Origin: Nitrospira japonica
Lineage (GTDB): Bacteria > Nitrospirota > Thermodesulfovibrionia > UBA6902
Length of the DNA stretch: 37,716 nucleotides
NCBI GenBank assembly: GCA_020723105.1
Contig: DYJL01000028.1
Location: forward strand, 1 to 37,716
Direction: 5' to 3'
The position numbers were made by a program, and so were the translations under genes. The notes beneath the pieces were generated by a model. The model worked only from the letters and a program-made list of their open reading frames with translations, ran no database searches and had not been told where the DNA came from. Within the stretch, counting starts at the first letter, position 1; the number at the start of each line of letters is the position of its first letter. Shown here in pieces: positions 1,745-18,323 of this stretch.

Positions 1745-2385
1745 TTAAACAGGAACAATTTGAACTGGAAGTGCTGGACCAGTTGAACAGCCGGAAATTT
1801 CTTAATCATCTTGTCTTTGGGGGCGGGACCATGCTGAGGCTCTGCTTTGGATTAGGCCGGTTTTCAGTGGATCTGGACTTCTGGCTTATAAAAGAGATTG
1901 ATATAGACAGGATGTTTGAGGATTTGAAAGCGTATCTTTCACAATCCTACACAATAAAAGACGCTGCCAATAAATTTTATACGCTCCTGTTTGAGATAAA
2001 GTCTGAGAAGTATCCCCGCAGTCTTAAGATTGAAATAAGAAAAGAGACAAAAAAAATAAGGACTGAAACGGCGATTGCTTACAGCAAATATTCCAACATG
2101 CAGGTCTTTCTGAAAGTCGTCTCTCTGAAAGATATGATGAATGCAAAAATTGAGGCCTTCCTGCAAAGAAAAGAGATCCGTGATGTTTTTGATATGGAAT
2201 TTTTGTTAAAAAAGGGTATAAATATAGATGTGCCTCCGCAGACCTCAGAAAAAATAATAAGAGGAATAAATGCATTTAAAAAGAAAGACTATACGGTCAA
2301 ACTCGGCTCTTTGATTGATGCGGAGCAAAGAAGATATTATGCAGATGAGAATTTCAAGATTCTTAAATCCGCGATAAAGAAATGA
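1732..2385 (+). CDS. abiEii: AbiEii/AbiGii-family nucleotidyltransferase toxin
   Basis: A 217-residue nucleotidyltransferase-fold protein. The signature is visible near the N terminus: GGGTMLRL at 30-37 and RFSVDLDF at 43-50, with metal-binding aspartates D47 and D49. A later KIEAFLQRKEIRDVFDMEFL segment (about 144-163) matches the conserved Lys/Arg and Asp motifs of the family. Characterised AbiEii-type toxins transfer nucleotides, and the MenT relatives modify tRNA acceptor ends; the substrate here is unknown. At 217 residues it is shorter than the classical lactococcal protein but within the range of compact members. Its stop codon overlaps the next start in an ATGA arrangement. Confidence 0.88.
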   Translation: MQDLIKQEQFELEVLDQLNSRKFLNHLVFGGGTMLRLCFGLGRFSVDLDFWLIKEIDIDRMFEDLKAYLSQSYTIKDAANKFYTLLFEIKSEKYPRSLKIEIRKETKKIRTETAIAYSKYSNMQVFLKVVSLKDMMNAKIEAFLQRKEIRDVFDMEFLLKKGINIDVPPQTSEKIIRGINAFKKKDYTVKLGSLIDAEQRRYYADENFKILKSAIKK

Positions 2386-5069
2386 AAAACCTTTTTAATA
2401 TATTCAGAAGATCCCGCCGTGACAAAAGCAAAAGAAATCTGCGTGAATCTCTAAAAGAGCGCTATCTTGTCTTTCAGCGTCTCCTGAATGAAAACAATAT
2501 GGTCCTCAGTATCATGGCGGACATGGAAGAAAAGCTCTCCGGTGAATATCTTTTTGACAGACAGTATCTGAATACAAATGTCAAACAAATCTCGGATACG
2601 GTCCTGAATATCATTGAGTGCCTTAATATTCTATCCCATAACAAGTTCAGACAATTATTCATTCAGCATGAAAATGTCAAAAGAGAGATTGAAAAAATAT
2701 TGCTCCATAAAATACAGATTCCGTTTACTGATCTGACGATTCCTGTTGAGAATCTTACAAAGGAAATGTCCAATATTACGGGTGGCAAGATGGCTCAGCT
2801 CGGTGAAATCAGAAGCCGTCTCAACCTTCTGACGCCGGAAGGTTTTTCAATCAGCGCGTATGCGTATAAGAGATTTATGGAGCATAACAGGTTTGCTGAG
2901 AAAATAAATGAAAGACTGTCTGCACTGAAAGCTGAGAATATGGATGAGATAAACCGTGTCAGCAGAGAGATTCAGGATATGGTAATAGAAGCGGAGCTGC
3001 CGGAGGATTTATCGGAGGCTATAGAAAAGGCAGTTGAAAGGTTGAAGGGTGAAGAGTTTAAAGACGATAGGATGTTATTGCGAGGCGAAGCCGAAGCAAT
3101 CTCAAAAGACGAGATTCCTCGCTGCGCTCGGAATGACATCCCCATCGGATTCCGCGTCTCCGTCCGCAGCAGCGCTATTCACGAAGACGGGGAATTCAGT
3201 TTTGCCGGACAGTATTCAACTTTCCTGAATGTTCCTCTTGGTGCGGTCTCCAGGAAATATAAGGAGGTTGTGGCGAGCCTGTTTAATCCACGGGCGATAT
3301 TCTATTACAAGACCAAAGGCTTTTGTGATAACGACATGGTAATGTCAGTTGGGGTGTTGAGGATGATTGATGCAAAGGCAGGCGGAGTTATGTACTCCCG
3401 TGACCCGAATAATCCTGAAAAGAGAACTACCATCATCAACGCCATATGGGGACTTGGCAATCTGGTAGTTGATGGTACTGAAGATCCAAATCTCTATATC
3501 GTTTCGAGAGATGAGAATTTCATTTCTGAAAAAAGAGTTCCGGAGCAAAAGAGCATGTGCACGTGCAACGCAGAAGGTGATGTTGCCGATGTGATTGTTC
3601 CTGATAATCTTAAGGGGGTTCATTGCCTGACAGATGAACAGATAATGATGCTTTCGGGATATGCTGAAATTCTGGAAAATCATTATAACGAGCCGCAGGA
3701 CATTGAATGGACGCTTGATGGCAATAATCAAATATACATTCTCCAGAGCCGTCCCTTAAGAACGTTCCAGTCCGTAAGTTCCATGGTGCAAGTTCCAAGA
3801 AGGCTTGAAGCATATAATATCCTGATTGACAAGGGCGTTATTGCCTGTAAGGGAGTAGGTTGCGGCAGGGCTTTCATTCTGAAAAATGATGAGGATCTGG
3901 AAGATTTCCCTGAAGGCGCTGTGCTCGTGGCAAAACACACAGCTCCAAAATATGTAATGGTGATGAACAAGGCATCTGCTATTGTCACGGATGTAGGCAG
4001 CGCCACAGGACATATGGCGTCTCTCTCCCGCGAATATCAGGTGCCGACAATACTCGATACTGAAAAGGCTACAGGACTTATAACACATGGACAGGAAATA
4101 ACTGTTGATGCAATTAACTGTAATGTGTACGAGGGCCGGGTTGAAGAACTTCTGAAATTCAAAACTCAGGATTCAAAATTTAAAGAGACACACATTTTTA
4201 AACTCTTGAATAATGTCCTGAAATTAGTCGTTCCCTTAAACCTTGTGGATCCTGACAAAGAGGAATTCAATCCTGACAATTGCAAAACCTATCACGATAT
4301 AACCCGCTTTGCGCATGAGATGGCAATGGCGGAGATATTCAAGACGGGCAAGGGGCGTGATATTGACAGTTTTGATGATCTCATGTCAGCGATTACCTTT
4401 GCGGAGTCCAGTGACACAAGTGATATAGACGAACAGGCTATTGTACTAAGGGCGGGAATTCCTGTTGAGGCGCGTCTGATAGATATAGGAGGCGGTGTAA
4501 AGGATTTCAAAAAGAAGGTGACACCGGAAGACATAACGTCGGCCCCGTTCTCATCATTTCTTAAAGGAATGAGGGAAATGAGATGGCCGGGACCGCCGCC
4601 TGTAGACGCCAGGGGATTTCTGGGAATGGCAGCTCAGACAGCAACCATGACAGAGGCCCAGCTCCGCAATATGGCCGAAAAGAGTTATGCAATAATCTCA
4701 AAGAATTATATGACCTTCAGCATAAGGCTCGGCTATCATTTTTCAATGGTAGAGGCTTATGCAGACGAAAATATAAATGACAACTACATCAAGTTTTTCT
4801 TCAAGGGCGGCGGCGCTGCAACAGACCGGAAACTGAGAAGGGTCCGGCTGATAAAAGAAATCCTGAAGACCATGAATTTCAGAGTGGAAGTTAAAGAAGA
4901 TGTGGTCAATGCCATGCTGACCAAGTACAAGAAGTCTGATATTGAGAGCAGGCTTGTGATAATGGGAAAGCTCACGGCCTATACCAAACAGCTCGATATG
5001 GTCATGTATAACGACGCAGTCGCCGACTGGTATGTCGAGGAGTTTGTCAGGGAGCATGTGAAAATATAA
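2382..5069 (+). CDS. PEP synthase / pyruvate phosphate dikinase-like protein
   Basis: An 895-residue protein. Residues 1-130 are helical and lack PPDK similarity. Residues about 130-465 form the pyruvate/ATP-binding PPDK N domain (GGKMAQLGEI near 135; VSVRSSAIHEDGEFSFAGQY near 259-278; DIEWTLDGNNQIYILQSRPL near 440-459). Residues about 480-590 form the phosphohistidine domain with H544 in ATGHMASLSREYQVPT; the usual Ser/Cys before His is Gly. The C-terminal 300 residues are not the PEP/pyruvate barrel of true PpsA and I do not recognise them. It may therefore phosphorylate a different acceptor. The start overlaps the abiEii stop (ATGA), so translation is coupled. Residues 231-253 are encoded by an inserted palindromic repeat. 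Confidence 0.82.
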   Translation: MKNLFNIFRRSRRDKSKRNLRESLKERYLVFQRLLNENNMVLSIMADMEEKLSGEYLFDRQYLNTNVKQISDTVLNIIECLNILSHNKFRQLFIQHENVKREIEKILLHKIQIPFTDLTIPVENLTKEMSNITGGKMAQLGEIRSRLNLLTPEGFSISAYAYKRFMEHNRFAEKINERLSALKAENMDEINRVSREIQDMVIEAELPEDLSEAIEKAVERLKGEEFKDDRMLLRGEAEAISKDEIPRCARNDIPIGFRVSVRSSAIHEDGEFSFAGQYSTFLNVPLGAVSRKYKEVVASLFNPRAIFYYKTKGFCDNDMVMSVGVLRMIDAKAGGVMYSRDPNNPEKRTTIINAIWGLGNLVVDGTEDPNLYIVSRDENFISEKRVPEQKSMCTCNAEGDVADVIVPDNLKGVHCLTDEQIMMLSGYAEILENHYNEPQDIEWTLDGNNQIYILQSRPLRTFQSVSSMVQVPRRLEAYNILIDKGVIACKGVGCGRAFILKNDEDLEDFPEGAVLVAKHTAPKYVMVMNKASAIVTDVGSATGHMASLSREYQVPTILDTEKATGLITHGQEITVDAINCNVYEGRVEELLKFKTQDSKFKETHIFKLLNNVLKLVVPLNLVDPDKEEFNPDNCKTYHDITRFAHEMAMAEIFKTGKGRDIDSFDDLMSAITFAESSDTSDIDEQAIVLRAGIPVEARLIDIGGGVKDFKKKVTPEDITSAPFSSFLKGMREMRWPGPPPVDARGFLGMAAQTATMTEAQLRNMAEKSYAIISKNYMTFSIRLGYHFSMVEAYADENINDNYIKFFFKGGGAATDRKLRRVRLIKEILKTMNFRVEVKEDVVNAMLTKYKKSDIESRLVIMGKLTAYTKQLDMVMYNDAVADWYVEEFVREHVKI
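3073..3138 (+). repeat. Palindromic repeat inserted in frame in the PEP-synthase-like gene
   Basis: A 66-base segment with inverted ends TGTTATTGCGAG (3073-3084) and CTCGGAATGACA (3127-3138), matching at 10 of 12 positions. The interior has the GCGAAGCCGAAGCAATCTC-type sequence typical of dispersed bacterial palindromes. The same end sequence, TGTCATTGCGAG, bounds the element at 26736-26813 in this window. The length is a multiple of three and no stop is introduced, so it adds about 22 residues just before the conserved VSVRSSA strand of the ATP-binding domain. Confidence 0.75.
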
Positions 5070-5099: not shown

Positions 5100-5153
5100 A
5101 GCATAAAGGGGGAGGCCGGCTGCGGATACGGAGACGGGCTTCCCCTTTATGCT
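5100..5153. terminator. Long hairpin between convergent genes (candidate bidirectional terminator)
   Basis: AGCATAAAGGGG (5100-5111) is perfectly complementary to CCCCTTTATGCT (5142-5153), with a GC-rich spacer that can fold further. It sits between the PEP-synthase-like gene and the convergent receiver gene and overlaps the receiver's stop codon by two bases. There is no strong T-run on either strand, so termination efficiency is uncertain. Confidence 0.5.
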
Positions 5154-5574
5154 AACCTTCAACTTTTTTCAACTGTTCCTTAAGCATCCTGTTTTCCTTC
5201 TGAAGTTCTGCCCACTTCAGCGCCTTGTCTATTGTAAAAAGTATCTGCTCTTTCTTGAACGGCTTTGTAATAAAATCGAAGCCGCCTTTTCCCATCGTTT
5301 CTATGGCAGATTCAACTGTTCCAAAGGCAGTTATTATGATTACAGGGATATCTTTATCAGTTTGTCTGATGGCGTCAAGGAGTTCAATACCATCAAGTCC
5401 CGGCATTTTAAGGTCTGCAATTACAAGATCAAAGCCTCCGTTTTTTACCAGTTCCAGAGCCTCCAGAGGATTATTAGTGATTGAAGCCTCATAGGAGGTT
5501 TTTTCCTTTATGATCATACTCAACAATTTCAGCATATCTGGTTCATCATCAACGATTAATAATTTTTCAGGCAT
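5152..5574 (-). CDS. Stand-alone response-regulator receiver protein
   Basis: A 140-residue receiver with acidic pocket D9/D10, phosphoacceptor D54 (ADLKMPGLDG), T82 and K104 (FITKPF). The C terminus is a short charged helix, LQKENRMLKEQLKKVEG, which closely resembles the linker after the receiver of the NtrC-type regulator at 12453. The protein stops where an AAA+ domain would begin, so it looks like an NtrC-type regulator reduced to its receiver. It follows the histidine kinase gene by about 70 bases and is its likely partner. With no output domain it could act as a phosphate sink, a phosphorelay carrier or through protein contacts. Confidence 0.9.
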   Translation of the reverse strand: MPEKLLIVDDEPDMLKLLSMIIKEKTSYEASITNNPLEALELVKNGGFDLVIADLKMPGLDGIELLDAIRQTDKDIPVIIITAFGTVESAIETMGKGGFDFITKPFKKEQILFTIDKALKWAELQKENRMLKEQLKKVEG

Positions 5575-5591: not shown

Positions 5592-5650
5592 AGTGAATAG
5601 TTGTTAGTGAATAGTGAATAGTTTTCTATAAGTCTTTCACTATTTACTGT
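5592..5650. repeat. AGTGAATAGT repeats in the kinase/receiver spacer
   Basis: AGTGAATAGT occurs at 5592-5601, 5606-5615 and 5613-5622. CAGTGAATAG (5591-5600) is nearly complementary to CTATTTACTG (5641-5650), so the spacer can form a weak hairpin. The same word recurs at 11352-11361 in the spacer behind the TauE gene. It looks like a low-complexity spacer repeat of this genome; no function is evident. Confidence 0.4.
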
Positions 5651-7884
5651 TTTGTCGTCGGTAAAGTTATTGTAAAAGTAGTTCCATGTTCGGTTGACTC
5701 TTCTTCTGTAGATGTTTCAAAAGTAATAGTTCCGCCGTGCTTGGTTATAATACCATATGAAACAAAAAGGCCTAATCCAGTGCCTTCCCCCACCTTTTTT
5801 GTGGTAAATAGGGGGTCAAATATTTTTGCTCTGTGCTGTCTGTCTATTCCGTATCCTGTATCTGAAATTACTACTTCAACTTCGTCTCCATTGTCTGCCG
5901 GCTTTGTAATTACCGAGAGAGTTCCTCCCGTCTTCATAGCGGATATAGCGTTATTTATTATATTGAAAAACACCTGCTGTAATTCTCCGGCATGTCCTTT
6001 CACCTGCGGCAGCGAATCGGGTAATTTTTTATTAATGGTTATTTTGTGAAGCGATGCGGTGTTACCCACAACTGAAAGAACTGAGTTAATATTTTGATTG
6101 ATGTCTACATTTTCTTCTTTTTGCTCTGAAAATCTGGTAAAGCTCAAGAGGTTCTCCACAACCCTTTTGGCATTGGTTCCCTGTTTTTCTATTGTCTTCA
6201 GAATTTCATAAAGCTCTGAATCCGGCTGAGTTTTTTCAAGCTGCAGATCCGTAAAGCCAAGAATTATCGCAAGAGGATTGTTTATCTCGTGCGCTACACC
6301 TGCCGCAAGAGTGCCCACTGACGCCAGCTTTTCTGTGTAATAGCTCTGTTCCTCTATTTTTTTTCTGTCTGAAATATCTCTCGATATACCGAGGACATTA
6401 GATGGGTTGCCATGTTCATCCAGCAGGAGAGTAAAATTTGTGCTCAGCCAGCGCGGGTTGCCGTCTACCTCTACAGAATAGGTTATTTGTTTGCTTTTTC
6501 CAGATGCAAAGACTTCGTCAATGGTTTTCAACTGCAGCGCTGCGCTGTCTTCGTTCAGACAGAGTTCTCCTATGTTGACGCCTGTAAGCTTATATGCTTC
6601 GTGATTGAAAAATGTACTCCCCGAATGATTAATTGTCATAATATTCCCATTGTGATCTACTGTAAAAATAATGTCTTCAGCATTTTCTACGAGAGATTTA
6701 TATCTGTGCTCTGATTTCTCAAGATCCATTGTTTTTTTCCTGACTTCGTCTTTTAGTGAATTAGACCAGCTCAGCACCAATGCAATATTCAAAATGCCAC
6801 CGAAAAGTATGACGAAGATGACGATAACCTGAAATGAAAGCTGCCGGACATGTATTGAATAAATTGCCCCTTCCACCTCGCTTATTGGCGCTACAACTGC
6901 CACGGACCATATGTCAGCCCCTTTGGAGTCTAAAGTAATGGGTGCGTAAGCGATCAGTTTTTTCATCTCGCCTTCAACACCTCTGTGCCAACCTGAGGTA
7001 TAAAAACTTGTTCCCCCTTTTCCCTTCAGCATCTGTTCTTTCTGAATTTCATTGATCTTTGCAAACGATATGGTGGGCTTTTTTTCCTTCCTGACCTCGA
7101 AGGCGTTCTTGCCTATAAATTCCGACTCAGGGTGATATAAAAAGTTTCCTTTATTATCAATTACCCATGCATAGCCTGTTTTTCCAGAACGGATATCTTT
7201 TGTTATAACCTTAACCAGTGATGTGGCGTCTACAGTAAAAATCAGGACGCCAGAGAAATTATTCGTTGCAAGAGGATGGCTTTCGTCAACAGATACTTGC
7301 CAGATGGGAAGCACCATTTTCATTACGAGAGAAGCCCCGGTATCTTTTTTTACCAGAGGCGTTATCAAGGATATGTCCTTGATAACTATATTATTCCGTA
7401 TCTTTTTATTTCGGGCCCACTCGAGATAAGAAAGGTCCTTAGAACTGGTATATATAGTATGGTATCCGGAAGAGTTTACCACATGAGTTTTCTTATTACT
7501 TTCGATGAATCGAATTTCTTCTACGCCTTCATCTTTTACACTTGAAAAGGTAATCCCCATCCTTCTTGCCATGAAGGCAGTTTCCATATATTGCACAGAC
7601 GGAGAGTTGCCGAGAAGCTGCAGTTCCCTTTTTAACATATTCAAGCTGCTTTCCACCTGCTGAGCAGCGTGCCTGGCAAGGACGAGCTGCTGTTCGTTAA
7701 AATCTCTTGTTACGATTTCTTTTACTTTTTGTGAATACAGCCATCCAAGAAGGAGGATTACGCCAAAAAGCAATAACATTATTACGCCTACTAAAACCTG
7801 AAGGGATCTTATCCTGAAAAATTTTTCAGCAAGGACCGAAATTAAAAATGTGAAATTGATATAAGAGGATTTCCCGTTTTTCAA
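5644..7884 (-). CDS. Membrane sensor histidine kinase, Cache-PAS-HisKA-HATPase
   Basis: A 746-residue kinase. A transmembrane helix at about 29-50 and another at about 351-374 flank a periplasmic Cache-like sensor region of roughly 300 residues (YAWVIDNKGNFLYHP near 238-252 is typical). A PAS domain spans about 390-510. The H box is SVGTLAAGVAHEINNP with H532. The N box is NIINNAISAM near 641-650, and the G boxes are DTGYGID (675) and GEGTGLGL (699-706). It is an NtrB/ZraS-like kinase in layout. The start is TTG, overlapping the TGA of the upstream Usp gene as TTGA, so translation is coupled to a stress protein. The likely partner is the receiver just downstream, possibly also the NtrC-type regulator at 12453. 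Confidence 0.93.
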   Translation of the reverse strand: MKNGKSSYINFTFLISVLAEKFFRIRSLQVLVGVIMLLLFGVILLLGWLYSQKVKEIVTRDFNEQQLVLARHAAQQVESSLNMLKRELQLLGNSPSVQYMETAFMARRMGITFSSVKDEGVEEIRFIESNKKTHVVNSSGYHTIYTSSKDLSYLEWARNKKIRNNIVIKDISLITPLVKKDTGASLVMKMVLPIWQVSVDESHPLATNNFSGVLIFTVDATSLVKVITKDIRSGKTGYAWVIDNKGNFLYHPESEFIGKNAFEVRKEKKPTISFAKINEIQKEQMLKGKGGTSFYTSGWHRGVEGEMKKLIAYAPITLDSKGADIWSVAVVAPISEVEGAIYSIHVRQLSFQVIVIFVILFGGILNIALVLSWSNSLKDEVRKKTMDLEKSEHRYKSLVENAEDIIFTVDHNGNIMTINHSGSTFFNHEAYKLTGVNIGELCLNEDSAALQLKTIDEVFASGKSKQITYSVEVDGNPRWLSTNFTLLLDEHGNPSNVLGISRDISDRKKIEEQSYYTEKLASVGTLAAGVAHEINNPLAIILGFTDLQLEKTQPDSELYEILKTIEKQGTNAKRVVENLLSFTRFSEQKEENVDINQNINSVLSVVGNTASLHKITINKKLPDSLPQVKGHAGELQQVFFNIINNAISAMKTGGTLSVITKPADNGDEVEVVISDTGYGIDRQHRAKIFDPLFTTKKVGEGTGLGLFVSYGIITKHGGTITFETSTEEESTEHGTTFTITLPTTKQ

Positions 7885-8753
7885 CTTTCGCCTTTCACGG
7901 TCTTTGTTATAAGAATGGGGCAGGGGGTATAACCAATAACTTTTTCAGCAACGCTGCCCATAAGAAGCCGGCTAATCCCTGTCCTTCCGTGGCTGCCCAT
8001 TACAATTACATCACAATTGTATTCTTTTGAGAGCGAGGTGATAACCTCATGAGTTTCTCCTTCTCTTACCAGTGTTGTTGCCGTAATTCCCTCAGCTTCA
8101 GCCCTGTTTTTTAATTCTTCAACGAATTCTCTTGCTTTATTTACAAGGTGCTCAACAACCCCGGGCGCCTCAGTTAAAAATTCTTCAGTCACGTCAACAA
8201 CAGAGACGATTATTAATTGTCCTCCGTAGGATTTTGCAAGGTTAGCCGCTTTCTCAGCCGCAGTTATACTGTATCTGGAACCATCAGTTGGAAGCAGAAT
8301 TCTATTCCAGCCTACGGCGGAATTTTGAGGAATGATGAGAATATCTTTCTGACTATGTCCTATGACCCGCGCTGTAACGCTTCCTATAAGCGTCTTTTCA
8401 AGTCTTGTGATGCCATGTCGTCCCATGACTATCAGGTCATAACCGCCTTCTTCTGCAAAGTCCGTGATACTTTGGAATGCAATACCTTCCAGTATTTGTG
8501 TTCTTATGAAAATGTCTTCCTGCTTCGCAATTTCCGATATTTTCGAGAGGATCTTTTCTCCTTCTTCATGGAGTTTTTTGCTGATTTTTTCCTTAGTGCT
8601 TAGGATTTCAAACTGGTCCTGGTATAACGGTATTACTGTGATAACGGTTATCCAGCTTTTATCTTCCCGGACTATTTTGCAGGCTTGCCTGAAGGCATTC
8701 GTGCTTGAATCTGAGCCGTCAACTGCTGAGAGTATTTTTCTGTATCTGCCCAT
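7881..8753 (-). CDS. Tandem-domain universal stress protein
   Basis: A 290-residue protein with two Usp domains (about 1-145 and 148-290). Each carries the ATP-binding G-2X-G-9X-G-S/T signature: GRHGITRLEKTLIGSVTARV in the first half and GSHGRTGISRLLMGSVAEKV in the second. The second half also has the DVTEEFLTEAPGV helix that is strongly similar to the single-domain Usp at 16472. Usp proteins bind ATP or act as stress-linked regulators. The gene is coupled to the histidine kinase by a 4-base overlap, which suggests the Usp protein modulates that kinase. A hairpin upstream separates it from the preceding Usp/TauE genes. Confidence 0.93.
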   Translation of the reverse strand: MGRYRKILSAVDGSDSSTNAFRQACKIVREDKSWITVITVIPLYQDQFEILSTKEKISKKLHEEGEKILSKISEIAKQEDIFIRTQILEGIAFQSITDFAEEGGYDLIVMGRHGITRLEKTLIGSVTARVIGHSQKDILIIPQNSAVGWNRILLPTDGSRYSITAAEKAANLAKSYGGQLIIVSVVDVTEEFLTEAPGVVEHLVNKAREFVEELKNRAEAEGITATTLVREGETHEVITSLSKEYNCDVIVMGSHGRTGISRLLMGSVAEKVIGYTPCPILITKTVKGES

Positions 8754-8863: not shown

Positions 8864-9301
8864 TTAGTCAGGATGTTTAACTATATATACAGAACATGGA
8901 CTATGCCTTACCACCTTTGATGCAACGCTCCCCATTTTAAAGCGTGAAGAAGAGCTTAATCCACGGCTGCCGATGATGATAAGATCCATTTTTTCCTGCT
9001 CGGCATAATCTATAATCGCATCTGGCACGGAAGTAGAAGCAACTATCTCTCTGCATGTTGCGATTATGTCTTCATTTGCAAGTACACCGCAAGCTTGTTG
9101 TGCTATATAATCTGCCCGGCTCAGCATTCCGGCTTTTAATTTTTCTTTTTCTGCTGCCGAAATTTCAAGGTCCATACCCTCAATTACCGGAACAACATTA
9201 ATCAGGCATATTTTGGCGTCTTTTGTTTTTGCATAATCAGAGGCAACTTTCAATGCCTCCATAGCATATTTTGAACCATCTACTGGAACTAATACTTTCA
9301 T
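8864..9301 (-). CDS. Universal stress protein (single domain)
   Basis: A 145-residue Usp-fold protein: MKVLVPVDGSKYAMEAL at the N terminus and the nucleotide-binding signature GSRGLSSSSRFKMGSVASKV near the C terminus. It is encoded three bases after the membrane protein gene, in the same direction as TauE, so it is probably part of the TauE operon. The order TauE, small membrane protein, Usp recurs at 16472-18323. Confidence 0.93.
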   Translation of the reverse strand: MKVLVPVDGSKYAMEALKVASDYAKTKDAKICLINVVPVIEGMDLEISAAEKEKLKAGMLSRADYIAQQACGVLANEDIIATCREIVASTSVPDAIIDYAEQEKMDLIIIGSRGLSSSSRFKMGSVASKVVRHSPCSVYIVKHPD

Positions 9302-9304
9302 TAA

Positions 9305-10018
9305 TTATGCCTCCTTTTTGACTTTGGCCTTTTTCATACTCATTCCGAGACCGTCGAAGATATAAAATATAGCATAGCCCCACCACATGGTATAAGCCAC
9401 GTAAAATATGAGCAGTCCGGACATCATACCGGCATGGTCCACCACTTTATTGGCGTCAATCTTGTAGAAATTGTAGCCGGGTTCAACGGCCTTTTTGTTT
9501 ACATCATCTATCACCTTTGCGTCGGCTACAAGTTTTTGCTTTTTCAGTTCCTTGGATATCTTGTCTAAAGCTGTCCACCAGTTTCTCATTGCATTCTTTT
9601 CTTCATATCCATAACGCTCCAATACGAACTTGCCATCGTTTTTATACATGGCGTCTGAATCGGTTAATGCACTTGTAAGAACTGACCCCAGGTCGCCCTG
9701 TATCTTTAATTGAGTGCTTTGAATCTCAACCGTTGCACCTGCTGTTGTGAATAGTTTTGCAGTGTTTTCAACATCCTCAATCTTGTCGAGGTTGATGCTT
9801 ACTGATAATGCCTTGCCGTTTACTTTCTCAACGGATTTGGCTACTTTCGGGATAAAGTATGATGAGCCTTTTGAAAGTTTGTTAAACATATCATCCGAAA
9901 ATACAAGGCCGTTCTTGCCGCCGGGAAATACAGGCGAGAAGATCAATACCAGTACTGATAAGAACGATATGGCCAACACAATGCCCATGCCGAACATCTT
10001 TTTATTTCTTACTATCAT
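9305..10018 (-). CDS. Two-helix membrane protein of the TauE/Usp operon, function unknown
   Basis: I do not recognise a characterised family. The 237-residue protein has an N-terminal hydrophobic helix (about 9-30), an extracytoplasmic middle part of about 160 residues rich in charged and beta-prone sequence (ALSVSINLDKIEDVENTAKL, then ATVEIQSTQLKIQGDLGSVL), and a second hydrophobic segment at about 196-222 rich in aromatics (YVAYTMWWGYAIFYIF), ending in a basic tail. It is one base from the TauE gene and three bases from a Usp gene, so it probably works with the exporter, for example as an accessory or sensing subunit. A shorter, different membrane protein holds the same position in the second cassette at 16890. 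Confidence 0.75.
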   Translation of the reverse strand: MIVRNKKMFGMGIVLAISFLSVLVLIFSPVFPGGKNGLVFSDDMFNKLSKGSSYFIPKVAKSVEKVNGKALSVSINLDKIEDVENTAKLFTTAGATVEIQSTQLKIQGDLGSVLTSALTDSDAMYKNDGKFVLERYGYEEKNAMRNWWTALDKISKELKKQKLVADAKVIDDVNKKAVEPGYNFYKIDANKVVDHAGMMSGLLIFYVAYTMWWGYAIFYIFDGLGMSMKKAKVKKEA

Positions 10019-10019
10019 G

Positions 10020-11303
10020 TTATACCTCCTCCTTTACAAGCACGGGAGCAACACTGTCGTCTTCTCCTCTTAATGTGCCGATATTTACGACAAACTTGCC
10101 TATGACCCATGCTGCAAAGGCCGCAACAACTACCCAGAATATTATATTGCCTGCGGATTCAATGCCCTTAACAACCGGCTTGGACCAGTTGATGACTTCA
10201 AGGTCAACGAGTTTTTTCGGAAGAGTTGCCGCTCTGTTAATGAAGCCTGCGAGAATTGATACTGCATAGAAACCTCTGATGTGAATGCCTTTAACAACCT
10301 TGGTTGTAAGCGCTCCTACCTGAATGCCGATAAGAGAGCCGAGAAGCATACCCATTGCCAGGGTGTAAAATACATATCCATAAATAGCATACTGGGTCGT
10401 TGCGGCGAGACCTGCAGTGAAGATGATCTGGAGAATGTCGGTGCCGACGGTTGTCATTGAAGAAACACCGAATACATAGACGAACATCGGGAAGGTGATG
10501 AATCCACCGCCTACTCCCATGATTGCCGCCATGAGGCCTACAACAACTCCGCCGAGCGCAACGATTACGCCGGAGATCTTTTTGCCGCCCGGCACAAAAT
10601 CTTCATCAAATCTGATAGCGGGCGGAATGTTTATGTTCTGGACTTTTATGGAGAGATTTGTCATTCCAGAACCGCCGCCATGGGCATCGCCAGTGTCATG
10701 TGACTTTCTTGATTTAAGGAAGTCTGCCAGTGCATAAAAGCCGAGGAAACCCAGGAGCACTGCATAGATCAGACTGATGAAGGCTTCACTAAGGTTAGGG
10801 TCATAGTCATAGAGACCCTTGTTGATTGCGCCGCCTATGAATGTCCCGCCGGCTGAGCCGACGAGGAATGCTATTGCCAGTTTGACAGATACGTTGCCGA
10901 GTTTTTTATGAACCGCTGTTCCCATTATTGCTTTTGCAAAAATATGAAAAAGGTCAGTTCCTACTGCGAGTATTCCTTTTACTCCCGCTGCCATCAAAGC
11001 CGGTGTTATAATGAACCCGCCGCCTGCGCCGATACAGCCCGTAATCAGTCCGGCGCAGAGACCGATTGCAATTGATATTAAGAAAATATCTGTTGAATAG
11101 AATGCCGGGGCATATGCAGTTTTACTTCCCAGCATGTCCCCTGCATCAACCATAGCCACCACCAGAATAGGCAGCAGCATTATAAAGAGTATCCACATCT
11201 TCTTCCTCTGTTTTAAAATACTCATTGAGACTTCATAGTCCCATTTGGCGTGAGCAACAGACGCCATCTTCAGGAACTCAAACACACGTCTTCCGATCCC
11301 CAT
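10020..11303 (-). CDS. TauE/SafE-family anion exporter (long form)
   Basis: A 427-residue polytopic membrane protein. The two internally repeated TauE halves each start with a glycine-rich helix: GCIGAGGGFIITPALM (about 90-105) and IMGVGGGFITFPMF (about 263-276), followed by VGTDL and VGTDI motifs. A cytoplasmic loop at about 200-245 contains the His/Gly-rich stretch KSHDTGDAHGGGSG. The N terminus carries an extra 35-residue soluble region before the first helix. TauE/SafE proteins move sulfite, sulfonates, sulfoacetate or related organic anions; the substrate is not identifiable. An AGGAGG site precedes the start. Confidence 0.9.
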   Translation of the reverse strand: MGIGRRVFEFLKMASVAHAKWDYEVSMSILKQRKKMWILFIMLLPILVVAMVDAGDMLGSKTAYAPAFYSTDIFLISIAIGLCAGLITGCIGAGGGFIITPALMAAGVKGILAVGTDLFHIFAKAIMGTAVHKKLGNVSVKLAIAFLVGSAGGTFIGGAINKGLYDYDPNLSEAFISLIYAVLLGFLGFYALADFLKSRKSHDTGDAHGGGSGMTNLSIKVQNINIPPAIRFDEDFVPGGKKISGVIVALGGVVVGLMAAIMGVGGGFITFPMFVYVFGVSSMTTVGTDILQIIFTAGLAATTQYAIYGYVFYTLAMGMLLGSLIGIQVGALTTKVVKGIHIRGFYAVSILAGFINRAATLPKKLVDLEVINWSKPVVKGIESAGNIIFWVVVAAFAAWVIGKFVVNIGTLRGEDDSVAPVLVKEEV

Positions 11304-11432: not shown

Positions 11433-11918
11433 TTATGCCGTCAACGGCACACTATTTTTCGAGACAACTACCAGCGGACATTTAAGCCTTTTCCATGCCT
11501 TTGCGAATGTTTTCTCTTTTACGTCGCATCCAATATTGAGTTCAATTGCCGCGCCCACAATAACAAACAATATCTCGCTCCTCCTATCCGTATAATCAAG
11601 GATAGCCTTTTTCACGCATCCTTTTTCCATGACCAGACTGAATCTGAAACCCACTTTTTCTACCTCGGACAGGAAATGCTTTAATCCTTTGCGGTCTTTT
11701 TCTGATTCGGAAACATAGAGGATTTCCAGATTTGCCTTCATCCTCTCACTGATATTCAGAGCGTACTTCAGAGCGTCCTTGTCAAAGGCACTGTCGGAAA
11801 TGGCGAGAAGAACGGTTTTATGCCCTTTCAGGATTTCCTTTGTTGTTTCGTGCTCCCCTGCCTCTGCAAATGCAACCGCCGACATTGTATCTTCTATCCG
11901 CTTCATGAATTTTTTCAT
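11433..11918 (-). CDS. Divergent Usp-like protein with an AFAEAGEH N-terminal module
   Basis: A 161-residue protein. Residues about 35-155 look like a Usp/adenine-nucleotide alpha-hydrolase fold (TVLLAISDSAFDKDALKYAL, ANLEILYVSE, LKCPLVVVS), but the G-2X-G-9X-G ATP-binding motif is missing; VGAAIELNIGC stands in its place. Residues 1-32 form a helix containing AFAEAGEH that is also found, almost alone, in the 55-residue protein just upstream (11961-12128). It is therefore probably a non-ATP-binding signalling Usp. It leads toward the TauE gene after a 129-base spacer. Confidence 0.75.
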   Translation of the reverse strand: MKKFMKRIEDTMSAVAFAEAGEHETTKEILKGHKTVLLAISDSAFDKDALKYALNISERMKANLEILYVSESEKDRKGLKHFLSEVEKVGFRFSLVMEKGCVKKAILDYTDRRSEILFVIVGAAIELNIGCDVKEKTFAKAWKRLKCPLVVVSKNSVPLTA

Positions 11919-11960
11919 TCTTGTTTATCCCACACACTGACAGTTCTATCTTTGAGCGGC

Positions 11961-12128
11961 TTATTTACCCTGTGCGCGTAACTGTGTGCGCGGTCTTTTT
12001 GTAATCCGGTCTCTTTTTTCAGGCCTCTTTTCTTCTCTTACAATCTCTCTTGCAGTATCATGTTCGCCTGCCTCTGCAAATGCCGCTGCTGCGTATACGT
12101 CTTCCATTTTCTTCAGAAGTTTCTTCAT
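11961..12128 (-). CDS. Small basic protein, 55 residues, with AFAEAGEH module
   Basis: A short gene with a good AGGAGG site seven bases before its ATG. The product starts MKKLLKKMEDVYAAAAFAEA, continues GEHDTAREIV, and ends in a strongly basic tail (about ten Arg and Lys in the last 25 residues). The first 31 residues match the N terminus of the Usp-like protein encoded next (11433-11918): about 17 identities without gaps, including an unbroken AFAEAGEH. It is either a free-standing copy of that module or a duplicated gene truncated after it. It is the first gene behind the sigma-54-like promoter at 12180. Its short length and paralogy are seen directly; its role is unknown. Confidence 0.7.
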   Translation of the reverse strand: MKKLLKKMEDVYAAAAFAEAGEHDTAREIVREEKRPEKRDRITKRPRTQLRAQGK

Positions 12129-12179: not shown

Positions 12180-12195
12180 TTCATAAACCGTGCCA
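12180..12195 (-). promoter_or_regulatory. Sigma-54-like -24/-12 promoter
   Basis: On the minus strand the sequence reads TGGCACGGTTTATGAA. The -24 element TGGCACG is perfect and preceded by C; the -12 element is ATGAA instead of TTGCA, with the invariant G in place and correctly spaced but C replaced by A. The predicted start is near 12169, giving a leader of about 40 bases before the 55-residue protein. A sigma-54 activator gene lies divergently 260 bases away, which supports the call. Confidence 0.6.
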
Positions 12196-12256: not shown

Positions 12257-12275
12257 TAATGTTGCATTATGCAAT
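12257..12275. promoter_or_regulatory. Palindromic site, copy 1 (candidate enhancer for the sigma-54 promoter)
   Basis: The core TTGCATTATGCAA (12262-12274) is a perfect odd palindrome. With flanks, TAATGTTGCATTATGCAAT is the reverse complement of the site at 12394-12412 at 18 of 19 positions. Its centre lies about 98 bases upstream of the predicted start of the sigma-54 transcript, the usual distance for an NtrC-type enhancer. Confidence 0.6.
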
Positions 12276-12384: not shown

Positions 12385-12413
12385 TTGGCATGGATTGCAT
12401 TATGCAACATTAT
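12385..12413 (+). promoter_or_regulatory. Promoter of the NtrC-type regulator with palindromic operator in its spacer (copy 2)
   Basis: TTGGCA (12385-12390) and CATTAT (12408-12413) are 17 bases apart and fit a moderate sigma-70 promoter. The spacer contains TTGCATTATGCAA (12395-12407), identical to the core of copy 1. A protein bound there would block RNA polymerase, so this copy is a natural autorepression site while copy 1 serves activation of the divergent sigma-54 promoter. Confidence 0.5.
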
Positions 12414-12452: not shown

Positions 12453-13814
12453 ATGGATAATAAAATCAAACTGCTCATTGCAGACGACGAAAAGATTACC
12501 CTGAAAAACCTGATGCACGTCATGAAGAAGGAAGGATATGATGTTACCGGCACGAGCAACGGTTCCAATGCATTGAAGTATCTGGAAACTGAAAGTTTTG
12601 ATATTGTGCTTACGGACGTGCGTATGGAAAAAGTTGACGGTATTCAGATACTGAAAAGATGCCGTGAACTTCATCCCGACACAGAGGTGATCATGATAAC
12701 CGGTTATGTGACACTCCAGTCCGCGATAAGCGCTATAAAGCAGGGCGCATATGATTACATAGCAAAACCTTTTAAACCGGATGAGGTGAGAAAGGTAGTA
12801 AGAGAAGCGATAGAGAAAGTTAAACTGAAAAAAGAGAATGCGCAACTTCGGGAGCAGCTTGAGAAATTTGAAGGCAAGGTCAGGATTATTACCCAGGACC
12901 CTGCAGTGCAGAGACTGCTTGAGACAGCAAAGCAGATAGCTCCAACGAACTGTAATGTCCTCCTGAGCGGTGAAAGCGGAACAGGAAAGGAAATGTTTGC
13001 GCGTTATATTCATTTCAACAGCGCAAGGGGAGAGGGACCGTTTTTCGCGATTAATTGCGGCGCATTTACTGAGGAGTTATTATCCAATGAATTATTTGGT
13101 CATGAAAAAGGCGCATTTACCGGCGCAACTGCCGGAAAAAAGGGTCTCATTGAAATGGCTTCCGGCGGTACGCTTTTTCTTGATGAAATTACGGAAATGA
13201 CCTCATCAATGCAGGTTAAGCTTTTGAGAGTTATTCAGGAAAAAGAGGTTCTGAGACTTGGCGCTACAAAGCCGCTCACTGTTGATGTCAGATTTATAGC
13301 AGCAACAAACAGGGATATCCATGATGCAATCAAGAAAGGCGGTTTCAGGCAGGATCTCTATTTCAGGCTGAATGTAGTTTCCATCCACATCCCTCCGCTC
13401 TCTGAAAGGAAGGACGACATACCGTTACTGAGCTATTATTTTCTGAAAAAATATTCAGTCCTCATGAAAAAAGAAATCAGTGAAATCTCGCAGGATGTGC
13501 TGGCTGTGCTGATGAATTATGATTTCCCGGGAAATGTAAGAGAGCTGGAAAATATCATAGAAAGGGGAGTGGCCCTATCAACCGGAAATATTATGGAAAC
13601 AGCGCATTTGCCGGAAGATTTGAAAGAGCTGAGCATCAGGACCTTCAGGAAAAAAGAAGGCAGGATACCTTCCCTCGAAGAGCAGGAAGAGGCGTACATC
13701 AAGTGGGTTATGCATGAGACCGGAGGCAACAGGACTGTTGCCTCGCAGATACTGGGGATAGACCGTGTTTCTCTCTGGAGGAAGCTGAAGAAGTATGGGC
13801 TCGAGGCAGGGTAG
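12453..13814 (+). CDS. NtrC-type sigma-54-dependent response regulator
   Basis: A 453-residue regulator with all three domains. Receiver: D11/D12, phosphoacceptor D55 (LTDVRMEKVDG), T83, K105. AAA+ domain: Walker A GESGTGKE (173-180), the sigma-54 contact loop GAFTGA (220-225), Walker B GGTLFLDEI with D244/E245, and the sensor segment FRQDLYFRLNV. C-terminal Fis-type helix-turn-helix: GGNRTVASQILGIDRVSLWR. It activates sigma-54 promoters from remote enhancer sites. The two inverted palindromes in the upstream spacer are its likely targets, and its probable kinase is the one at 5644-7884. A TauE gene follows after 23 bases. Confidence 0.96.
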   Translation: MDNKIKLLIADDEKITLKNLMHVMKKEGYDVTGTSNGSNALKYLETESFDIVLTDVRMEKVDGIQILKRCRELHPDTEVIMITGYVTLQSAISAIKQGAYDYIAKPFKPDEVRKVVREAIEKVKLKKENAQLREQLEKFEGKVRIITQDPAVQRLLETAKQIAPTNCNVLLSGESGTGKEMFARYIHFNSARGEGPFFAINCGAFTEELLSNELFGHEKGAFTGATAGKKGLIEMASGGTLFLDEITEMTSSMQVKLLRVIQEKEVLRLGATKPLTVDVRFIAATNRDIHDAIKKGGFRQDLYFRLNVVSIHIPPLSERKDDIPLLSYYFLKKYSVLMKKEISEISQDVLAVLMNYDFPGNVRELENIIERGVALSTGNIMETAHLPEDLKELSIRTFRKKEGRIPSLEEQEEAYIKWVMHETGGNRTVASQILGIDRVSLWRKLKKYGLEAG

Positions 13815-16471: not shown

Positions 16472-16888
16472 TCAGGCCCTTACTATCAGCACATTACAGG
16501 GGGCGTGTCCTATAACCCTTGATGCAACACTTCCCATAAGAAGTCTTGTAATACCTGTTCTTCCGTGACTCCCCATTACTATAAGGTCTGCCTTGTTCTT
16601 TTTTGCGGTATCTACAATAGCTTCATAGGGATCGCCTATTCTGACTTGTTTTTCAACAGTAATATGTTGTGCTGTTATCTTGGTGGTGACCTTATCGAGA
16701 AGCTTTCTCGTCTTTTCAACCATCTTATCAGCCAGGCCCGGGGCCTCTGTTTCAAATTCAGTTGTGATATCAACCACGCTTAAAATAATCAGCTTTGCTC
16801 CTGATTCCTTTGCCATGGATACTGCTTCCCGTACTGCATTATTACTGTATTTTGAACCGTCAAAGGCAACTACTATTTTCTTGGCCAT
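16472..16888 (-). CDS. Universal stress protein (single domain)
   Basis: A 138-residue Usp protein: KIVVAFDGSKYSNNAVREAV at the N terminus and the ATP-binding signature GSHGRTGITRLLMGSVASRV before HAPCNVLIVRA. It is strongly similar to the second half of the tandem Usp at 7881-8753, including DITTEFETEAPG. It is the last gene of the second TauE/membrane-protein/Usp cassette and starts one base after the stop of the preceding gene. Confidence 0.95.
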   Translation of the reverse strand: MAKKIVVAFDGSKYSNNAVREAVSMAKESGAKLIILSVVDITTEFETEAPGLADKMVEKTRKLLDKVTTKITAQHITVEKQVRIGDPYEAIVDTAKKNKADLIVMGSHGRTGITRLLMGSVASRVIGHAPCNVLIVRA

Positions 16889-16889
16889 A

Positions 16890-17333
16890 TTAATGACCTC
16901 CTGTCTTTAAGATTCCGCTTGCTGCAAGAGCCAGAACAGCTATCTCGACTATTGCAATGAGTACATAAGGAGTTTCTTTCTTTCTGATTAATATAGGCAG
17001 TATGGCGAGATAACACAGTATAGTTAAGCCTGCAAGAATAGCGATTCCAACAAAATTCAAATAGTCGCCTTTTCCTGCCAGTGCAGTCCATCCCCAGCCT
17101 GTCGGTATATTGAGAGCCTGATTGAAATCATGGGCTCTCATGCTCCAGTACGGCACTTCGGAGCCCGGCGGGGTTTTAGAGAGTTTCTCGATTGGCACAT
17201 GACTGGGCAGCACCCCGGATATGTAGATAATGAAAGTGACTATAAGCAGTGCCAGTCCGAACCACATCCCCTTATTTAAAATATTAGCATATGTAATTTG
17301 TTCTTCAGATGCCTTTGTTCTGTCATTGCTCAT
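16890..17333 (-). CDS. Small membrane protein of the TauE/Usp cassette
   Basis: A 147-residue protein with three hydrophobic segments (about 22-42, 91-116 and 122-141) and an extracytoplasmic loop of about 45 residues (PPGSEVPYWSMRAHDFNQAL). It resembles the DUF1634-type proteins often encoded beside TauE permeases, but I assign this only tentatively. It lies 15 bases after the TauE gene, with a good AGGAG site, and one base before a Usp gene. An accessory role for the exporter is the simplest reading. Confidence 0.75.
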   Translation of the reverse strand: MSNDRTKASEEQITYANILNKGMWFGLALLIVTFIIYISGVLPSHVPIEKLSKTPPGSEVPYWSMRAHDFNQALNIPTGWGWTALAGKGDYLNFVGIAILAGLTILCYLAILPILIRKKETPYVLIAIVEIAVLALAASGILKTGGH

Positions 17334-17348
17334 TTTTATTCTCCTTTT

Positions 17349-18323
17349 TTATTTCCATATTTCCAATCCTTTTAACAAAGACCTTAAACCCGCGAAAAGT
17401 AAAAGTCCGATAACCATCCATTTAATGGCCTTTGGTTTTGCCTTTGCGAGTATCTTTACACCCACTATGGAGCCAAGCATGATACCTACTATTGAAGGCA
17501 CAACAATCATTGGCAGCACTGCACCCTGGTTCAGGTAGACCCAGGCCGCTGATGTGTCAGTTATAGAAAGCAGGAACTTGCTTGTGGCAACAGAAATCTT
17601 CAGGGGAGCTCCCATAAGCAGATTCAAAACCGGAACATTCGCCCAGCCCGCGCCGAGACCGAACATGCCTGCCATTATGCCGATTACCACAAACAACGCC
17701 AGTCCTGTCGGTGTTTTATGAACAGTCCACTCCACATCCTTGCCAAGAGATTCTTCCCTGTAGATACCCATAATTCCAAGGCTCTGAGAGAGGTTGTCGG
17801 GTTTAGGCACAATAGGGAAGTCAGATTTTTTGGCAGTACCCATGATGACTACTATAAGCAGAATGGTTGCACCGAGTAGTATATTGACGACGTTAGGTTT
17901 GAGAGCCAGGCCAATCATAGCTCCCACTATGGCAGCAGATGAAGCAATCAATGCTACAGGCAATGCAAGACGGAGACTGGCAAGATTCCTTTTTAAAAGA
18001 CCGGGACCTGCTGCAAGTGCGCCTGCAAGAGCAACAAGAAGCCCTGCGCCTCTGACAAAATCAATATTAAAAGGAAAAAATCCTCCGACAATAGGCACAA
18101 ACAAAACGCCGCCTCCAACACCGCCTAAAACTGCAAGGATTCCAAGGACAAATGTTACTATAAATAAAACCAGCGGCCAAACCCACCATGCAACATTGGA
18201 ACTGGCAACGGGCGGAGGTGCGGCTTCCGTTGATGCAAATGCAGAAACGGTTGCCAACATCAAACAGAAAACGACTGATAAGAATAAGACAATTTTCGGG
18301 GATCTTAGTGTTTTGAATAGCAT
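17349..18323 (-). CDS. TauE/SafE-family anion exporter with N-terminal signal
   Basis: A 324-residue polytopic protein. Residues 1-30 look like a cleavable signal (IVLFLSVVFCLMLATVSAFA, then STEAAPPP). The two TauE halves are marked by AVLGGVGGGVLFVPIV (about 64-79) and IMAGMFGLGAGWANVPVLNL (about 216-235). A cytoplasmic loop of about 40 residues joins the halves. It is the first gene of the cassette TauE, membrane protein, Usp, which repeats the order of genes 10020-11303, 9305-10018 and 8864-9301. The substrate is unresolved. Confidence 0.9.
   Translation of the reverse strand: MLFKTLRSPKIVLFLSVVFCLMLATVSAFASTEAAPPPVASSNVAWWVWPLVLFIVTFVLGILAVLGGVGGGVLFVPIVGGFFPFNIDFVRGAGLLVALAGALAAGPGLLKRNLASLRLALPVALIASSAAIVGAMIGLALKPNVVNILLGATILLIVVIMGTAKKSDFPIVPKPDNLSQSLGIMGIYREESLGKDVEWTVHKTPTGLALFVVIGIMAGMFGLGAGWANVPVLNLLMGAPLKISVATSKFLLSITDTSAAWVYLNQGAVLPMIVVPSIVGIMLGSIVGVKILAKAKPKAIKWMVIGLLLFAGLRSLLKGLEIWK

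Follow-up and report, generated by a model that had tools for sequence, protein, structure and literature searches.

A TPR-like helical hairpin, free and fused to unrelated proteins, in a putatively sigma54-controlled Usp-permease operon of Nitrospira japonica

A 55-residue open reading frame (ORF) of Nitrospira japonica has, judged by sequence comparison, the marks of a real, conserved gene under purifying selection. Its product begins with a small module that recurs on the neighboring universal stress protein (Usp) and, in relatives, on several unrelated proteins. We lean toward the view that this module is a reused docking hairpin that brings together the products of a sigma54 two-component/anion-transporter operon, with the free copy acting as an adaptor or competitor; the docking role is read from the anatomy of the proteins. 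The window, by which we mean the whole 37,716-nt stretch analyzed (contig DYJL01000028.1), contains the following features.

2382-5069, plus strand: PPDK_N/PEP-utilizers protein, with an ~18-residue insert at 4365-4409 carrying the module's first helix, SFDDLMSAITFAE
5152-5574, minus strand: single-domain receiver without the module; comparable receivers elsewhere carry a C-terminal module
5644-7884, minus strand: dCache-PAS-HisKA-HATPase sensor kinase
7881-8753, minus strand: tandem Usp
8864-9301, minus strand: canonical Usp (Pfam Usp, 3e-28)
9305-10018, minus strand: conserved 237-aa operon protein with hydrophobic segments at both ends and no Pfam match
10020-11303, minus strand: TauE/SafE-family permease (Pfam PF01925, 5.4e-38); gene cluster in 55 loci
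11433-11918, minus strand: 161-aa protein with the module (11817-11918) N-terminal to a degenerate Usp domain
11961-12128, minus strand: free-form module protein, 55 aa, hairpin (residues 1-34) plus conserved basic tail
12180-12195, minus strand: sigma54-like -24/-12 site TGGCACGGTTTATGAA, 51 nt 5' of the short gene's ATG
12262-12274: palindrome TTGCATTATGCAA, putative activator site
12395-12407: second palindrome, identical to the first
12453-13814, plus strand: divergent NtrC-type sigma54 activator (receiver, Sigma54_activat, Fis HTH)

An earlier note on this DNA had called two ORFs, 11961-12128 and 11433-11918, and both are present at those coordinates. The first, on the minus strand, translates as MKKLLKKMEDVYAAAAFAEAGEHDTAREIVREEKRPEKRDRITKRPRTQLRAQGK, and direct reading of the sequence finds a Shine-Dalgarno-like AAAGGAGG just 5' of its ATG. 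As a query on its own, the 55-aa sequence found a match in 77 of 101 relatives' genomes, several of the matches being full-length with 60 to 82% identity. The remaining 24 genomes, including one of the same genus, had no match to this query, and the module is thus dispensable for many relatives. Pairwise dN/dS of the short form was ~0.05 to 0.16 in close homolog pairs where dS is unsaturated; for the window copy against its nearest pairs, pS was 0.75 to 0.84 and pN 0.10 to 0.11, values at which dS is saturated but the direction is clear. The basic tail, with a recurrent R-P-R-x-x-L-R-A core, is kept in Nitrospirota and in deltaproteobacterial MAGs, that is, in two phyla. The earlier note had staked its reading on the existence of homologs of the short form elsewhere and on purifying selection among close relatives; both were found, and its reading was not refuted. 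A 55-aa ORF can, it appears, be the conserved first gene of an operon.

The protein encoded at 11433-11918 on the minus strand starts MKKFMKRIEDTMSAVAFAEAGEHETTKEILKGHKT. It does share an N-terminal module with the short protein, as had been proposed: over residues 1 to 31 the two agree at 18 of 31 positions (about 17 by the earlier count), AFAEAGEH included, after which the short protein switches to its basic tail and the longer one runs on into a Usp-like fold. The best ungapped identity between the two proteins was 20, whereas in 2000 shuffles it never exceeded 14, and a six-frame search of the whole genome with the short protein returned the Usp copy as the only other match (E = 2.8e-7). 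The coexistence of free and fused forms extends well beyond this pair. Among 81 module loci, the free form is found in 71, the Usp-fused form in 70, and both in 64, where they lie at most 300 nt apart in 57; the free copy is usually the first gene of the operon and the module-Usp gene the next. Identity of the module between free and N-terminal Usp copies is 0.54 within loci and 0.49 between loci, and this only slight excess within loci points to an old split between the two forms.

The AlphaFold model of the fused protein matches Usp structures with a Foldseek probability of 1.0, and on this model the fused domain is predicted to have the Usp alpha/beta fold, the same fold as the universal stress protein family (PF00582). 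It differs from that family in its Pfam score, which at 20.9 bits falls under the 24-bit gathering cutoff, and in lacking the ATP-binding motif; module-Usp proteins also differ in having the extra hairpin module, either N-terminal to the degenerate domain or inserted internally after the second strand. The glycine motif, G-2X-G-9X-G-(S/T) as defined in PMC3673472, could not be found on reading the sequence, which bears out the earlier description, and the domain is probably non-ATP-binding. Degenerate Usp ATP motifs have been reported in structural surveys, and ATP binding is not always lost (PMC3673472).

The module has the consensus E-D-x-M-x-A-x-x-F-A-E-A-G-E-x-E-T-A-R-E-I-L, and its profile spans 36 columns. 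Both AlphaFold models, of the Usp fusion and of the tandem form, show a helix-turn-helix with the turn at AGE, at a module pLDDT of <50 in the former and about 60 to 75 in the latter. The tandem-module model as a whole reached a pLDDT of 61.6 and a pTM of 0.33, values too low for the packing of the hairpins to be read from it. This low-confidence model aligned weakly to solved structures, mostly TPR/PPR-type repeat proteins (Z about 5 to 6, best 5.8). The module, of roughly 34 residues, looks like one TPR-type helical hairpin, and its A14, F17, G21, and A26 share the spacing of TPR consensus positions 8, 11, 15, and 20. It shares the helix-turn-helix with the tetratricopeptide repeat (TPR_4 and related Pfam models). 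However, a TPR domain is an array of three or more repeats of about 34 aa, whereas the module is single or double, usually with one copy and with two or three at most, and it falls below every Pfam cutoff while having a strong consensus of its own, FAEAGE. TPR_4 is its commonest weak Pfam match (best E 0.015), the window copy scoring 14.5 bits against a cutoff of 27. No Pfam or NCBIfam model matched the module above cutoff, a search of PDB sequences with its profile gave nothing below E 0.5, and a PHROGs search gave nothing convincing.

Profile searches, in genomes that were mostly metagenome assemblies, found the module in 98 of 296 genomes across the phylum and in 39 of 297 genomes of the phylum to which a deltaproteobacterial MAG belongs. 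Single records also came from Chromatiales and Deferribacteres MAGs and could be contamination. The window's own genome has three clear module carriers, all within the window; a fourth hit elsewhere was not significant (E 0.02).

It is also important to point out how diverse the hosts of the module are. Besides the Usps, they include the free form itself, with one module or two in tandem, and response regulators bearing the module at the C terminus of a receiver domain (loci L102, L114, L131, L133, and L141, among others). Locus L127 has the module on a small two-TM protein, whose module-less counterpart, the cluster-8 protein, adjoins the permease in other loci. An alignment of PPDK_N/PEP-utilizers proteins places the insertions at two distinct points. 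One PPDK-like subfamily (L040, L042, L043, L108, L117, and L138) has the module inserted whole; in the window's protein and in a genome of the same genus (L054), an ~18-residue insert holds the first helix only.

Several further observations concern these genes. Two tandem free-form genes share an operon in two genomes (L013/L052 and L015), with a within-genome pS of 0.32 to 0.38. In L066, L068, L072, L089, L090, L100, L107, L112, and L123, the module genes are separated from TauE by the gene for a two-TM protein of ~100 aa, similar to the one that carries the module in L127. In a Desulfobacterales genome, a recent-looking module copy lies within an epimerase/GCV_H protein (L187, 1680-1913). 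It is identical at 72 of 87 nt to the response-regulator copy of the same genome and sits between two 78-nt direct repeats of the host (74% identical) that meet the module at FED; the repeats may hint at the way in which the module is copied.

The gene order in the window is free module, module-Usp, TauE, 237-aa protein, Usp, tandem Usp, and dCache-PAS kinase. Recurrent neighbor clusters at the 81 module loci were NtrC-type regulators (66), histidine kinases (57), TauE/SafE permeases (55), and Usps (53), frequencies that are biased towards strong matches, the loci having been gathered via the module itself. Other module loci have CitMHS or Na/sulfate-symporter (DASS-type) proteins, and PPDK-like proteins. 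In 14 loci, a homolog of the 237-aa protein is conserved in the position between the permease gene and a Usp gene. A set without the module, made up of a second TauE permease, a DUF1634-like membrane protein, and a Usp, occupies 16472-18323; about a dozen other loci have homologs of these genes close to the module operon. Directly 5' of the PPDK-like gene, 1148-2385 encodes an AbiEi-like/AbiEii type IV toxin-antitoxin pair, the AbiEi match being under the Pfam cutoff.

Upstream of the free gene, the window's -24/-12 site scores 13/16 and has a weak -12 element. Sites scoring at least 13/16 precede the free gene in 34 of 66 loci, against 2.3% of shuffles. The two palindromes, 133 nt apart, are the only TTGCA-N3-TGCAA sites in the window, and this pattern occurs in 18 of 73 upstream regions against 0.05 expected. 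With a -24/-12 promoter before the first gene, an adjacent sigma54 activator, and upstream palindromes, the module operon is putatively sigma54/NtrC-controlled. A structured RNA was set aside, as nothing in the window matched Rfam at the gathering threshold.

The simplest explanation for a module that has moved among unrelated partners of one operon, and has persisted as a subunit of its own too, is a docking device. In the mechanism we propose, a TPR-like hairpin of ~34 residues would serve as the operon's reusable protein-docking module. The first gene would supply it free, with the basic tail as a possible second contact, and the next gene would put it on a degenerate Usp domain; in relatives, response regulators, a small membrane protein, and PPDK-like enzymes would carry it as well. 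The module may bind its own copies or one shared partner, such as the kinase, the permease, or a membrane site, and this binding would gather the operon products. The free copy could then be an adaptor, or possibly compete with the fused copy for the same putative partner. The earlier suggestion of a possible docking helix, free and fused, draws support from the anatomy and from the recurrence in unrelated hosts, but a two-helix hairpin describes the module better than one helix.

A more specific version, which we regard as possible but only tentatively propose, sees in the module a domain for homotypic assembly. The Usp, response regulator, membrane, and PPDK-like proteins that bear the module would co-assemble with the free protein by TPR-like stacking, and the products of the whole operon would be joined in a single complex, its stoichiometry governed by the free copy. 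Alternatively, the module could be a degron or localization tag for a protease, chaperone, or membrane site and not a joiner of operon products. Its short, positively charged start and its placement at the N terminus, at the C terminus, or internally would suit such a tag, which would give much the same distribution as a docking module. We nonetheless find it unlikely, as a simple tag would not be expected to occur in tandem copies, nor to have a first gene to itself whose free product ends in a conserved tail. Convergence of unrelated single TPR repeats is very improbable: the TPR-like motif and the weak TPR_4 matches speak for it, but module copies are concentrated in one operon type and are far more similar to one another (E down to 1e-24 from a single-sequence query across the 101 relatives) than to any TPR model. 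It is hardly credible that the repeats are a mobile nucleic acid element read in frame without a protein role, like Rickettsia palindromic elements. The in-frame insertions in unrelated hosts and the recent epimerase/GCV_H copy are what such an element would leave; however, synonymous sites are saturated between most homologs, the values for identical-codon use are 0.46 within loci and 0.41 between them, copies are found mostly in operons of this type with only two or three in the window's genome, Rfam gave no match, and DNA-level conservation between copies is limited to that one exceptional case. Finally, the earlier note's option of a decayed duplicate, widened here to include a recent copy of the 5' end of the Usp gene, has a negligible chance of being right. 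The adjacency of the two genes and a 17-nt identical stretch (GCATTTGCAGAGGCAGG) lend it some color, but it is refuted, given the low dN/dS, a conserved tail missing from the Usp form, homologs widespread in two phyla, and the age of the split.

Our preferred reading, the docking hairpin, can be set beside known Usp partnerships. The Usp Rv2623 is reported to act on the transporter Rv1747, and the TeaD-TeaABC and UspC-KdpD/E pairs, as cited there, likewise tie Usps to a transporter or a two-component system (PMC5549992 and PMC2714519). The operon described here resembles all three in this tie and differs in its shared free and fused module, which these papers describe for none of the three. 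A literature search on Usp with sigma54 and permease or exporter, covering few subscription journals, found no description of the operon or the module. Taken together, a small module of the interaction type, which scored above cutoff with no model in the family libraries searched, is shared in two phyla by unrelated proteins encoded in a single regulated operon. It offers a handle on how Usps, most of which act by unknown mechanisms, might be linked to transporters and two-component systems.
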